DNA of 64,000 bases from Gemmobacter fulvus (lineage in GTDB: Bacteria > Pseudomonadota > Alphaproteobacteria > Rhodobacterales > Rhodobacteraceae), in NCBI RefSeq assembly GCF_018798885.1, contig NZ_CP076361.1, positions 186,001 to 250,000 of the forward strand, read 5' to 3'. The position numbers were made by a program, and so were the translations under genes. Positions 30,552 to 50,792 of the stretch are shown one piece after another; the first letter of the stretch is position 1; the number at the start of each line of letters is the position of its first letter. The notes below the pieces were generated by a model. The model had not been told where the DNA came from. It did not search any database and worked only from the letters and a program-made list of their open reading frames with translations.

Positions 30552-30557
30552 GGTCTC

Positions 30558-30632
30558 ACTGCTCGATAGGTTTCTTGCCTGTATGAAACCTGCCTCAATA
30601 ACTTAACGCCGGCTTCGCGCCGGCGTTTTTTT
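30558..30632 (+). ncRNA. Candidate small RNA A (about 75 nt)
   Basis: Between the divergent peptide-binding protein and bdhA genes. The promoter at 30523-30551 would start RNA near 30558. A first stem-loop pairs AGGTTTC with GAAACCT over 10 nt. The RNA ends in an intrinsic terminator with an 8-bp stem (ACGCCGGC/GCCGGCGT) and seven T residues. The T-run exists only on the plus strand, and no plus-strand gene ends here, so the terminator belongs to this short transcript. A seven-codon ORF (MKPASIT) lies within it. The family is not recognised. The remaining 180 bp up to bdhA hold no gene. Confidence 0.55.
30606..30632 (+). terminator. Orphan intrinsic terminator (3' end of sRNA A)
   Basis: ACGCCGGC (30606-30613), loop TTCGC, GCCGGCGT (30619-30626), then a run of seven T. 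It has the full features of a Rho-independent terminator but follows no plus-strand gene. Confidence 0.85.
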
Positions 30633-30812
30633 CTTTTGGGCCAGCTGTGATCCGGCTGCAATCGACGATCCCGCCAGCCGCCGCCGATTGGCGAAAAGCC
30701 GCCCGCACCACTGCCGCCCGCGCTTTGCGCTGCGTTGCGGCAAGAGGGGGCTATCATCCTGCCGGGCAGCACCTATGTTGGGGCCACAAGTGTCAAAACG
30801 TGGAGTGAAGCG

Positions 30813-48110: not shown

Positions 48111-49682
48111 TTACCGCTTGCGAAACAATGACCCCAGAACCCCGCGCACGATGGCCTGCCCGGATTTGGTGCCCAACTGGCGGGCAAAGCTCTTGGCAAA
48201 GGCCTCTGTCACGCTGTCCGACCGGCGCGGTGCGGATTTGGGCGGCGCGGCAGGTTTGGGCGCGCGCGACGCCCCGCCATCATAGCGTCGCCCCTTGTTG
48301 AACTCGCGCACCTCCTGCGGATCGAGCGACAGGCCGCCTTCGGGCTGTGCCGGGGCATTGGCTTCGCGCGCCGCCACCTCGGCCCGGGCGCGCAGTTTCT
48401 CAAACGCCGAATCGCGGTCGATCACCGCCTCATATTTGCCGTGCAGCGGCGAGGCGGCCAGAAGCTGCGCCCGCAGCGCCGGATCAATCGGGCCAAGCTG
48501 CGAGGCGGGCGGGCGGATCAGCGTGCGTTCCACCACCGAGGGGATGCCCTTGGCCTCCAGAAACGAGGTCACCGCCTCGCCGGTGCCGACATCGCGGATC
48601 GCATCCTCGGTGGCAAAGCGCGGATTGGGGCGATAGGTCTCGGCCGCCAACCGCAGGTCTTTCTGATCGCGCGCGGTAAAGGCACGCAGCGCGTGCTGCA
48701 CCCGGTTGCCCAGCTGGCCCAGAATATTCTCGGGCACATCCGCCGGATTCTGCGTGATGAAATAGACCCCGACGCCCTTGGAGCGGATCAGCCGCGCCAC
48801 CTGTTCCACCTTTTCCACCAATGCCTTGGGCGCATCGTTGAACAGAAGATGTGCCTCGTCGAAAAAGAACACCAGCTTTGGTTTGTCGGGGTCGCCCACC
48901 TCGGGCAGTTCCTCGAACAGTTCCGACAGCAGCCACAGCAGGAAGGTCGCATACAGCCGCGGGCTGTTCATCAGCTTGTCCGCCGCCAGCAGGTTCACAT
49001 GGCCCCGCCCCTGCGCATCGACCTGCATCAGATCCGCCAGCGCCAGCGCCGGTTCGCCAAACAATTGCGCGCCGCCCTGATTTTCCAGCACCAGCAAGCG
49101 CCGCTGGATCGCCCCGACCGAGGTCGTGGACACCAGACCATAGCGGGTCGAGATGGACTGCGCATTTTCTCCAATAAAGACCAGCATGGCTTGCAGATCT
49201 TTCAGATCGAGCAGCGGCAGGCCCTCTTCATCGGCCAGTCGGAAGGCCACGTTCAGCACACCCTCCTGCGGCTCTGTCAGCTCCAGCAGGCGCGACAGCA
49301 ACAGCGGCCCCATTTCCGAAATGGTGGCGCGGATCGGGTGGCCCTGTTCGCCATAAAGATCCCAATAGGTCACCGGACAGGCGGCATAGACCAGATCAAG
49401 CCCGATGGTGGCGGCGCGTTTGCTGAAGGCCTCGTGCAGCTTGTGATCCGCCGATCCGGCCACGCCCATGCCCGACAGATCGCCCTTCACATCCGACAGG
49501 AACACCGGCACGCCCGCCGCCGAAAACCCCTCGGCCAGCACTTGCAGCGTCACCGTCTTGCCGGTGCCGGTTGCCCCGGCAATCAGGCCATGGCGGTTGC
49601 CGTATTTGAGCAACAGCGTCTGCGGTGCCGCATAGGCCTCGCCGCCGCCACCCACGAAAATCCCCGCCTGATCACCGCTCAC
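48111..49682 (-). CDS. HerA-like/DUF853 (YjgR-type) ATPase
   Basis: P-loop ATPase of the HerA/FtsK superfamily, 523 residues. Walker A GATGTGKTVTLQVLAEGF near residue 36-53; Walker B KLVFFFDEAHLLFND near 275; arginine-finger region VYFITQNPADVPENILGQL; and C-terminal AFAKSFARQLGTKSGQAIVRG-like DUF853 region with Lys/Arg-rich end. No nuclease partner such as NurA is adjacent, which argues against a HerA-NurA repair pair. The function of YjgR proteins is unknown. Confidence 0.88.
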   Translation of the reverse strand: MSGDQAGIFVGGGGEAYAAPQTLLLKYGNRHGLIAGATGTGKTVTLQVLAEGFSAAGVPVFLSDVKGDLSGMGVAGSADHKLHEAFSKRAATIGLDLVYAACPVTYWDLYGEQGHPIRATISEMGPLLLSRLLELTEPQEGVLNVAFRLADEEGLPLLDLKDLQAMLVFIGENAQSISTRYGLVSTTSVGAIQRRLLVLENQGGAQLFGEPALALADLMQVDAQGRGHVNLLAADKLMNSPRLYATFLLWLLSELFEELPEVGDPDKPKLVFFFDEAHLLFNDAPKALVEKVEQVARLIRSKGVGVYFITQNPADVPENILGQLGNRVQHALRAFTARDQKDLRLAAETYRPNPRFATEDAIRDVGTGEAVTSFLEAKGIPSVVERTLIRPPASQLGPIDPALRAQLLAASPLHGKYEAVIDRDSAFEKLRARAEVAAREANAPAQPEGGLSLDPQEVREFNKGRRYDGGASRAPKPAAPPKSAPRRSDSVTEAFAKSFARQLGTKSGQAIVRGVLGSLFRKR

Positions 49683-49692
49683 ACCCTGCCCC

Positions 49693-49721
49693 TTCGCTGA
49701 CTCTGGTATCGAAAATACAAT
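49693..49721 (+). promoter_or_regulatory. Candidate promoter of sRNA B
   Basis: TTCGCT (49693-49698) and TACAAT (49716-49721) are 17 bp apart. The -10 is good and the -35 moderate. The start would fall near 49728. Confidence 0.4.
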
Positions 49722-49727
49722 CTTAAT

Positions 49728-49830
49728 CTCTTTGTGCCAGCCTTGAATACAGTCCCGGCGGCGCTGCGTGCCACAGGGGCTGTCTTCCTCCCTGTGGACT
49801 GGCCGCGCCGATAAAAGGCGCGGCCTTTTT
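49728..49830 (+). ncRNA. Candidate small RNA B with anti-SD loop (cuckoo/CcsR-like)
   Basis: About 103 nt between the divergent HerA-like and ialB genes. A perfect 8-bp stem CCACAGGG (49771-49778)/CCCTGTGG (49790-49797) carries an 11-nt loop; CTTCCTCCC runs from the loop into the stem (49784-49792). This differs by one base from CCUCCUCCC, the hallmark of cuckoo-family sRNAs such as Rhodobacter CcsR. Directly after comes an intrinsic terminator: GGCCGCGCC, 7-nt loop, GGCGCGGCC, T5. Stem-loop plus terminator is the CcsR layout. The 5' end is the least certain part. Confidence 0.55.
49801..49830 (+). terminator. Orphan intrinsic terminator (3' end of sRNA B)
   Basis: GGCCGCGCC (49801-49809), loop GATAAAA, GGCGCGGCC (49817-49825) and five T. 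The T-run is on the plus strand only, where no protein gene ends. Confidence 0.85.
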
Positions 49831-49867
49831 GCATGATTTATGGCAGCGCAAACATCTCAGATTTGTG

Positions 49868-49896
49868 TTGACCTGTCGCACGCCACGCCTTAGCGT
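49868..49896 (+). promoter_or_regulatory. Promoter of candidate sRNA C
   Basis: TTGACC (49868-49873) and TAGCGT (49891-49896) are 17 bp apart, with a near-consensus -35. It lies 38 bp after the terminator of sRNA B. Confidence 0.5.
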
Positions 49897-49902
49897 CAGG
49901 TC

Positions 49903-49970
49903 CAATGAAGTCGGCCAGTCCGACAGGGAGCAAATAAATAGGAAAAGGGCCGGATTTCCGGCCCTTTTTC
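49903..49970 (+). ncRNA. Candidate small RNA C (about 68 nt)
   Basis: Second short transcript in the same intergenic region. A small hairpin GTCGG-CCAGT-CCGAC (49911-49925) is followed by an A-rich single strand (GCAAATAAATAGG) and then an intrinsic terminator: AAAAGGGCCGGA pairs with TCCGGCCCTTTT, ending in a T-run. The A-rich linker would suit Hfq. A ten-codon ORF (MKSASPTGSK) starts at 49905, so a leader peptide is the alternative. The 147 bp from here to ialB hold no further feature except its ribosome-binding region. Confidence 0.45.
49943..49970 (+). terminator. Orphan intrinsic terminator (3' end of sRNA C)
   Basis: A 10-12 bp GC-rich stem (AAAAGGGCCGGA/TCCGGCCCTTTT) with a short TT-containing loop and a TTTTT-C-TTTT tail. 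The A-rich 5' side makes it partly bidirectional. Confidence 0.8.
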
Positions 49971-50117
49971 TTTTGGATCCGGCAGCGCAGACCCGGCTTT
50001 CGGCCCGCCGCAATGGGCAGCAAACCGCCAAGCCAGCCCGGCAGAACAGTTTTTTCACACTGACTCCGCCCTGTGCCCATGGTAAGGGGCGGCATCACCA
50101 TTTGAGGACTTATCGCA

Positions 50118-50792
50118 ATGGCAATGAATGACTTGACCAAGGCACTGGCGATCACGCTGACGCTCGGTCTGGGCAGCGCCGCCCTGGCGCAAGACACCAC
50201 CACCGAAGCCCCGGCGACCACGACCGAAGCCCCGGCGGCCCCGGCAACCGAAGCACCTGCAACCGAAGCACCGGCACCGGCCGCCGATGCGCCCGCCACC
50301 CCGGATGCCGCTGCAGCCCCGGCTGCTGATGGCGTCGGCTCGGTCTATGCCAAGGCCACCCATGGCGATTGGGAACAGCGCTGCGTCAAGGCCCCCGAAG
50401 GCACCACCGATCCCTGCCAGATCTATCAGCTGCTGAAAGACAGTGAGGGCAATGCCGTTGCCGAAATCGGTGTGTTCCCGCTGCCGGATGGCGAAAAGGC
50501 CCTGGCGGGCGGCACGATCAGCGCGCCGCTGGAAACCCTGCTGACCGAAAATCTGGTGATCCAGATCGACGGCGGCAAAGGCCGCGTCTACCCGTTCAGC
50601 TGGTGTGACCGCAGCGGCTGCGTGGCGCGTGTGGGCTTCACCAAGGAAGATCTGGCCGCGTTCAAGGGTGGCAACAAGGCCACGCTGACCATCGTGCCGG
50701 TGACAGCACCCGACCAGAAGGTCAATCTGGCGATCTCGCTCAAGGGCTTCACCGCCGGCTATGACGCGCTGGCGCAACCCGCCAAGCAATAA
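50118..50792 (+). CDS. Invasion-associated locus B (IalB) family periplasmic protein
   Basis: Exported protein of 224 residues. Signal peptide (LTKALAITLTLGLGSAALAQ), then a low-complexity linker of about 45 residues built from TEAPA-type repeats (50196-50333), then the IalB domain (HGDWEQRCVKAPEGTTDPCQ, GVFPLPDGEKALAGGTISA, FSWCDRSGCVARVGFT). Four cysteines (two pairs) could form disulfides. In Bartonella IalB supports red-cell invasion; in free-living alphaproteobacteria the family is common and of unknown role. It precedes a lipid A-type cassette on the other strand. Confidence 0.88.
   Translation: MAMNDLTKALAITLTLGLGSAALAQDTTTEAPATTTEAPAAPATEAPATEAPAPAADAPATPDAAAAPAADGVGSVYAKATHGDWEQRCVKAPEGTTDPCQIYQLLKDSEGNAVAEIGVFPLPDGEKALAGGTISAPLETLLTENLVIQIDGGKGRVYPFSWCDRSGCVARVGFTKEDLAAFKGGNKATLTIVPVTAPDQKVNLAISLKGFTAGYDALAQPAKQ

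Follow-up and report, generated by a model that had tools for sequence, protein, structure and literature searches.

A candidate sponge RNA beside a SorX/SorY-type anti-Shine-Dalgarno sRNA gene in the Rhodobacteraceae

The window analysed here is a stretch of 64,000 nucleotides from the Gemmobacter fulvus (Rhodobacteraceae) genome, G000, corresponding to positions 186001-250000 of its contig 1. The interval flagged by a first-pass annotation, 49693-49830, is intergenic and lies between a HerA-like gene on the minus strand and an IalB-like gene on the plus strand; it likely also takes in the promoter of the divergent herA gene. DNA comparison revealed a second, more conserved block beyond it, at 49866-49935, and the region can be read as two separate putative sRNA genes arranged head to tail, sRNA1 and sRNA2, with about 70 nt between the terminator of the first and the second. 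Comparison of relatives showed that the gene order herA - sRNA1 - sRNA2 - ialB is kept. The features of the locus are as follows.

48111-49682, minus strand: HerA_C/DUF853-like ATPase gene, divergent neighbour (Pfam HerA_C, 1.1e-218)
49713-49726, no strand assigned: ATACAATCTTAA element 5' of sRNA1, a candidate for a promoter or for the site of a regulator (ATACnnnnTTAA-type element that tracks sRNA1)
49745-49830, plus strand: sRNA1, predicted SorX/SorY-type anti-Shine-Dalgarno sRNA, start approximate (sub-threshold SorX match; same-place orthologs in about 45 genera)
49750-49782, plus strand: 5' hairpin of sRNA1, sequence-variable across species (MFE structure; fold stability of orthologs)
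49783-49800, plus strand: conserved linker of sRNA1 with the anti-Shine-Dalgarno core TCTTCCTCCCTGTGGACT (largely single-stranded in orthologs)
49788-49804, plus strand: stretch of sRNA1 complementary to sRNA2, CTCCCTGTGGACTGGCC (predicted duplex with 49913-49930)
49801-49830, plus strand: intrinsic terminator of sRNA1 (9 GC pairs at 49801-49825, then T5)
49868-49896, plus strand: sRNA2 promoter TTGACC-17-TAGCGT (conserved across loci)
49903-49972, plus strand: sRNA2, candidate sponge RNA, start approximate (covariance model R1; alignment)
49910-49924, plus strand: conserved hairpin of sRNA2, GTCGG-CCAGT-CCGAC (54-ortholog alignment)
49913-49930, plus strand: candidate sponge site of sRNA2, GGCCAGTCCGACAGGGAG (complementary to the SorX, SorY and sRNA1 cores)
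49943-49972, plus strand: intrinsic terminator of sRNA2, whose stem also reads on the minus strand (11-pair stem, T-rich tail)
50060-50088, plus strand: putative ialB promoter CTGACT-17-TAAGGG (similar CTGACA-17-TAAAGC spacing in relatives, by eye)
50118-50792, plus strand: IalB-family protein gene, downstream neighbour (Pfam IalB, 5.4e-37)

The flagged interval had been proposed to encode a trans-acting type of sRNA with an anti-Shine-Dalgarno element and a terminator of its own, and the conservation of both core and terminator in orthologs bears this out. The motif, the 9-mer CTTCCTCCC at 49784-49792 of the plus strand, and the 9-pair GC stem that follows it (49801-49825, running into TTTTT) were both confirmed. 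Taken alone the 9-mer is at chance level, with 0.40 occurrences expected and 33 of 100 shuffles containing it, and CCTCCTCCC with one mismatch occurs less often than expected (9 times against 19.8); chance as the whole explanation of the motif was nevertheless rejected, because the element is conserved across the Rhodobacteraceae. The fold of the flagged stretch is unusually stable when compared with shuffles (-44.9 kcal/mol, z -3.5). The MFE fold of sRNA1 pairs CAGUCCC...GGGGCUG (49750-49756 with 49776-49782), and the CTTCCTCCC motif falls for the most part in the linker between two hairpins. A perfect 8-bp hairpin had also been described, and CCACAGGG and CCCTGTGG are indeed able to form eight pairs, but it is missing from the predicted MFE fold. 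Display of the motif in the loop of this hairpin was not upheld, since the upstream ACAGGG that is needed occurs in only 1 of 47 orthologs, that of the window, and the motif is part of a linker.

Orthologs of sRNA1 were collected from HerA-anchored loci of named genera and their relatives, which yielded 47 with the core, 44 of them aligned. CCTCCCTG was invariant in 44/44 while the sequence of the 5' hairpin varied, the pattern of a kept motif and a changing stem by which the first-pass annotation had asked to be judged. The consensus core is UUCCUCCCUGU, with a mean unpaired probability of 0.70, and the 5' hairpin region gave z values below -1 against shuffles in 35/47 orthologs (mean z -1.84). 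Compensatory changes were seen at 7/9 terminator pairs among the 44. The conserved plan of the predicted RNA is one of a variable 5' hairpin, a mostly unpaired linker UUCCUCCCUGUCAGACUGGCC and a terminator with compensatory changes, and judged by this pattern sRNA1, which combines an anti-Shine-Dalgarno core with an intrinsic terminator, is a genuine sRNA gene, widespread in a large, aquatic bacterial family. The ATACnnnnTTAA-type element upstream was present at 41 of the 48 loci with sRNA1 and at 2 of the 15 without it (p 6e-7), a co-variation which suggests that sRNA1 is driven by its own, regulated promoter. sRNA1 has been lost at several close relatives (L002, L004, L007, L009 and L010). 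The ATACA and CCAG boxes at 49713-49740 of the window are retained even at loci without sRNA1 and may represent the minus-strand promoter of herA, and the TTAA between the two boxes tracks sRNA1.

When the flagged region was compared with Rfam its best match was SorX (RF02784), which aligned over its full length at 49752-49831 with 28.3 bits and an E value of 8.5e-5; the gathering score of 46.6 was not reached. That sRNA1 is the SorX ortholog was rejected, as the true SorX exists elsewhere in the same genome, where it scores 77.4 bits and follows an OmpR-type regulator gene; a SorY-like gene follows a LysR gene. The SorX locus (L148, G000:C1:1747058-1747242, minus strand) holds, after the OmpR-type response regulator gene, first SorX and then a weaker copy in tandem that shares its core. 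One further genome we take to be that of R. sphaeroides, on a 100% match to the reaction-centre H subunit. Its SorX and SorY matches lie at 2,598,225 and 1,632,636, in agreement with the published 5' ends at 2,598,224 and 1,632,642; the SorY match passes the Rfam cut-off. Both sRNA1 and sRNA2 are present in R. sphaeroides as well, between katE and an ialB-type gene, with the counterparts of sRNA2 and sRNA1 on the minus strand of chromosome 1 at about 1,426,533-1,426,599 and about 1,426,667-1,426,755, respectively. A HerA alignment search of this genome gave no match, and the sRNA pair adjoins katE there instead. With separate SorX and SorY-like genes in the same genome, sRNA1 is by its sequence features neither of these, and is a third sibling of the two.

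As defined here, the sibling group has a 5' hairpin, an unpaired CUCCCUGU-GAC-UGGCC core and a terminator, all of which were found in sRNA1. SorX has the same order of hairpin, linker and terminator, with the core CUCCCUGUUGGAC.UGGCC where sRNA1 has CUCCCUGUCAGACUGGCC, but it occupies the 3' end of an ompR-type regulator gene, and sRNA1 does not. SorY (RF02651) shares the core CCUCCCUGUUGGACUUGGGCC and the terminator and is likewise an orphan gene with its own promoter; however, sRNA1 scored only 17.1 bits against a cut-off of 111 and lacks the CTTGAA-CCTAAAT RpoH-like promoter that SorY has beside the LysR gene. The layout of sRNA1 also resembles that of alphaR8/MmgR/SisA-D (RF00519), in which a single-stranded 10-mer, UUUCCUCCCU, follows a weak hairpin and precedes a terminator (PMC12559287). 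In the window sRNA1 has CUUCCUCCCU, one base off UUUCCUCCCU, and the exact 10-mer occurs in at least 9 of 44 orthologs. In contrast to alphaR8, sRNA1 is not beside an N-formylglutamate amidohydrolase gene and scored 16.0 bits where the cut-off is 41, a cut-off that none of 15 sRNA1 ortholog loci reached. The features of the StsR, SorX and cuckoo families used for comparison were taken from later papers on these families. Two other elements were observed in the course of the searches. L201 (G000:C3:302957-303029, minus strand) has the core CCCTCCCTGTCTGCCTTGGCCCC and a terminator and is a possible fourth sibling. An sRNA-like element, CACTGCTCGATAGGTTTCTTGCCTGTATGAAACCTGCCTCAA...AACTTAACGCCGGCTTCGCGCCGGCGTTTTTTT, occurs at 30555-30635 of the window (plus strand) and is near-identical in R. 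sphaeroides at ~1,443,989-1,444,068 of chromosome 1 (minus strand); in each genome the sRNA pair is 17-19 kb away from the element, which has only sub-threshold Rfam matches.

The flagged element had been said to sit alone and without a DUF1127 gene, and although no DUF1127 neighbour was found, a second conserved sRNA gene directly follows it. The promoter of sRNA2 was found in the exact form GTTGAC-N18-TAGCGT at 41/63 loci and in a looser form at 56/63. Its hairpin is followed by AGGGAG, an A-rich linker and the terminator; CGG, GTCCG and GGGA are invariant in 54 aligned orthologs, and the U-A pair of the hairpin occurs also as C-G and U-G. No conserved start codon was seen by eye 3' of AGGGAG in the 54-ortholog alignment, which argues that this is not an obvious ribosome-binding site, and sRNA2 as a leader peptide was rejected because orthologs do not keep the ATG frame of 10 codons seen in the window. 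No Rfam family reached its cut-off in the sRNA2 region; a PrrB/RsmZ match over 49804-49972 (22.7 bits, cut-off 44) was treated as chance.

The covariance model R1 detected sRNA2 in 260/297 Rhodobacteraceae genomes, almost always as a single copy. Among 289 genomes from the whole class, clear matches came from the Rhodobacteraceae only, with two weak ones in addition (E 1.2e-4 and 5.4e-4). SorX-like RNAs were found in 278/297 Rhodobacteraceae genomes (E <= 1e-6), and 257 of these 278 have sRNA2 while 21 do not. A SorX-like RNA was absent from 19 genomes, 16 of which are also without sRNA2, the exceptions being G302, G350 and a weak match in G198. The co-occurrence gave a Fisher p of 9e-14 over the 297 genomes, in a test that ignores relatedness. 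sRNA2 is kept in species that have lost sRNA1, and this persistence fits a sponge, since SorX and SorY remain as clients.

The site GGCCAGUCCGACAGGGAG of sRNA2 is complementary to the core common to sRNA1, SorX and SorY, with predicted duplexes of about -31 to -40 kcal/mol. Those of the window genome were -34.8 (sRNA1), -35.4 (SorX), -31.4 (tandem SorX) and -33.8 kcal/mol (SorY) and those of R. sphaeroides -32.7 to -35.4 kcal/mol, whereas shuffled sites gave means of -12 to -15 kcal/mol (-12.4 for the sRNA1 duplex). These energies come with the caveat that the roughly 6.6 kcal/mol needed to open the sRNA2 hairpin are not subtracted. An identical 13-nt core complementary to sRNA2, CUCCCUGUUGGAC, was present in 28/30 SorX-type genes, and for 12/30 the predicted duplex reached -39 to -40 kcal/mol because their CUCCCUGUUGGACUGGCC needs no bulge. 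A degenerate pattern of the site has one exact match genome-wide, at the 49913-49930 locus. Strong complementarity to the seeds of several sibling sRNAs in one genome, the mark of a sponge of the CrfA kind, is thus what was found for sRNA2. Of the changed cells within the site 7 are non-pairing and 36 preserve the pairing, by A to G where the partner is U or by C to U where it is G. Immediately 3' of the hairpin 37 orthologs have A, 17 have G and none has a pyrimidine; this base lies outside the intramolecular stem, and the alternation of A and G is the expected outcome of pairing to an invariant U. Loop insertions in 8/54 orthologs, together with the 7 non-pairing cells, indicate that pairing is kept less than strictly in the GGCC half, and the orthologs offered no clear case of sRNA1 and sRNA2 changing in a compensatory way. 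Seven loci of Roseovarius/Sulfitobacter type (L067, L080, L084, L085, L091, L097 and L111) have one extra base in the hairpin loop of sRNA2, and this base would form a bulge where sRNA2 pairs with the GGCC half of the siblings.

A precedent is provided by CrfA of Caulobacter crescentus, which was reported in 2025 to sequester four alphaR8 siblings, SisA-D, via their single-stranded UUUCCUCCCU anti-Shine-Dalgarno core (PMC12559287). This precedent and the alphaR8-type layout of sRNA1 led to the proposal that sRNA2 is probably a shared sponge for sRNA1, SorX and SorY. sRNA1 would be transcribed as a trans-acting repressor of the SorX/SorY kind, built of a hairpin at the 5' end, the exposed linker CUUCCUCCCUGU...GACUGGCC and a terminator; the linker would pair with GGGAGG-type ribosome-binding sites, and it is there that sRNA1, SorX and SorY would repress their mRNA targets. 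sRNA2 would be transcribed from its own housekeeping-type promoter, end at its own terminator and offer its short hairpin and GACAGGGAG strand as a target mimic for the sibling core. Base-pairing over ~17-18 nt, probably on Hfq, would then sequester or destabilise the siblings, with control presumably running from sRNA2 to them, and sRNA2 would set the level that the siblings, induced by stress as the likely physiological trigger, must exceed before repressing mRNAs.

Mutual complementarity has no direction, and sRNA2 could instead be a regulator of mRNAs of its own, with sRNA1, SorX and SorY binding it to switch it off or to trigger its decay. There is precedent in R. sphaeroides for one sRNA acting on another, StsR-UpsM, with one of the two cleaved by RNase E (PMC8307010), and sRNA2 has a wider spread than sRNA1. 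This arrangement is nevertheless considered improbable, as invariance in sRNA2 falls on the stretch that is complementary to the siblings, little else being kept save promoter and terminator, and the anti-Shine-Dalgarno core in all three siblings points to mRNA targets of their own; potA is a published target of SorX. StsR-UpsM resembles the present pair in that one sRNA pairs with another, but StsR is RpoHI/HII-driven and 72 nt long and UpsM is a dcw leader (PMC8307010). Identity with StsR was rejected for the R. sphaeroides locus at 1,427 kb, since the positional RSs numbering would place StsR near 858 kb. A locus there (L175, G085:C4 ~858,070-858,145, plus strand) is, by position alone, the probable StsR; its ACTGTCCC is the complement of GGGACAGT in the mraZ leader of the window genome.

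Very unlikely, too, is a role for sRNA2 as the transcribed leader or the attenuator of ialB, in which sRNA1 would act in cis to control read-through. The conserved order herA - sRNA1 - sRNA2 - ialB would suit such a role, and UpsM is a published case of a leader-derived RNA (PMC5089854), but ialB apparently has its own CTGAC-17-TAAAG promoter 3' of the sRNA2 terminator (by eye) and many species keep sRNA2 and ialB without sRNA1. The first-pass proposal of a cuckoo/CcsR-family RNA showing CUUCCUCCC in a hairpin loop can be set aside as scarcely credible, for although sRNA1 shares an anti-Shine-Dalgarno element with cuckoo/CcsR and alphar14/NfeR1, combines it with a hairpin and a terminator and has a motif one base from CCUCCUCCC, the family carries CCUCCUCCC itself in unpaired parts of each hairpin and also has repeated units, with a DUF1127 host for CcsR (PMC10746234, PMC10253847), whereas sRNA1 has the conserved core UUCCUCCCUGU (CUUCCUCCC in the window), the proposed hairpin in a single ortholog, no repeated units and HerA-like and IalB-like neighbours, and is closest to SorX in Rfam.

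The sponge reading of sRNA2 invites comparison with CrfA, made here by features. Both are single sRNAs complementary to the anti-Shine-Dalgarno core of several siblings, with the pairing site in a G/A-rich stem-loop, but sRNA2 is ~70 nt long, has a TTGAC/TAGCGT promoter, adjoins one sibling and is all but confined to the Rhodobacteraceae. It seems somewhat likelier than the contrary that an undescribed sponge, linked to one of its clients, buffers the anti-Shine-Dalgarno stress sRNAs SorX, SorY and sRNA1 in most Rhodobacteraceae genera and, jointly with this, that sRNA2 is a second sponge against such siblings besides that of Caulobacter, possibly independently evolved. SorX and SorY have been studied as sRNAs of the oxidative-stress response in a model phototroph, and neither a common antagonist of the two nor a third sibling was found in Rfam or the searchable literature. 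sRNA2, which the first-pass annotation did not report, is the more consequential of the two neighbours. Both genes are present in R. sphaeroides, and the sponge idea is therefore testable there. If sRNA2 is a sponge for SorX and SorY, control of the stress response has a layer across the family that has gone unnoticed, the published effects of the two RNAs would need to be re-read, and the coupling of anti-Shine-Dalgarno sRNAs with a sponge would seem to be a solution that recurs in the Alphaproteobacteria.
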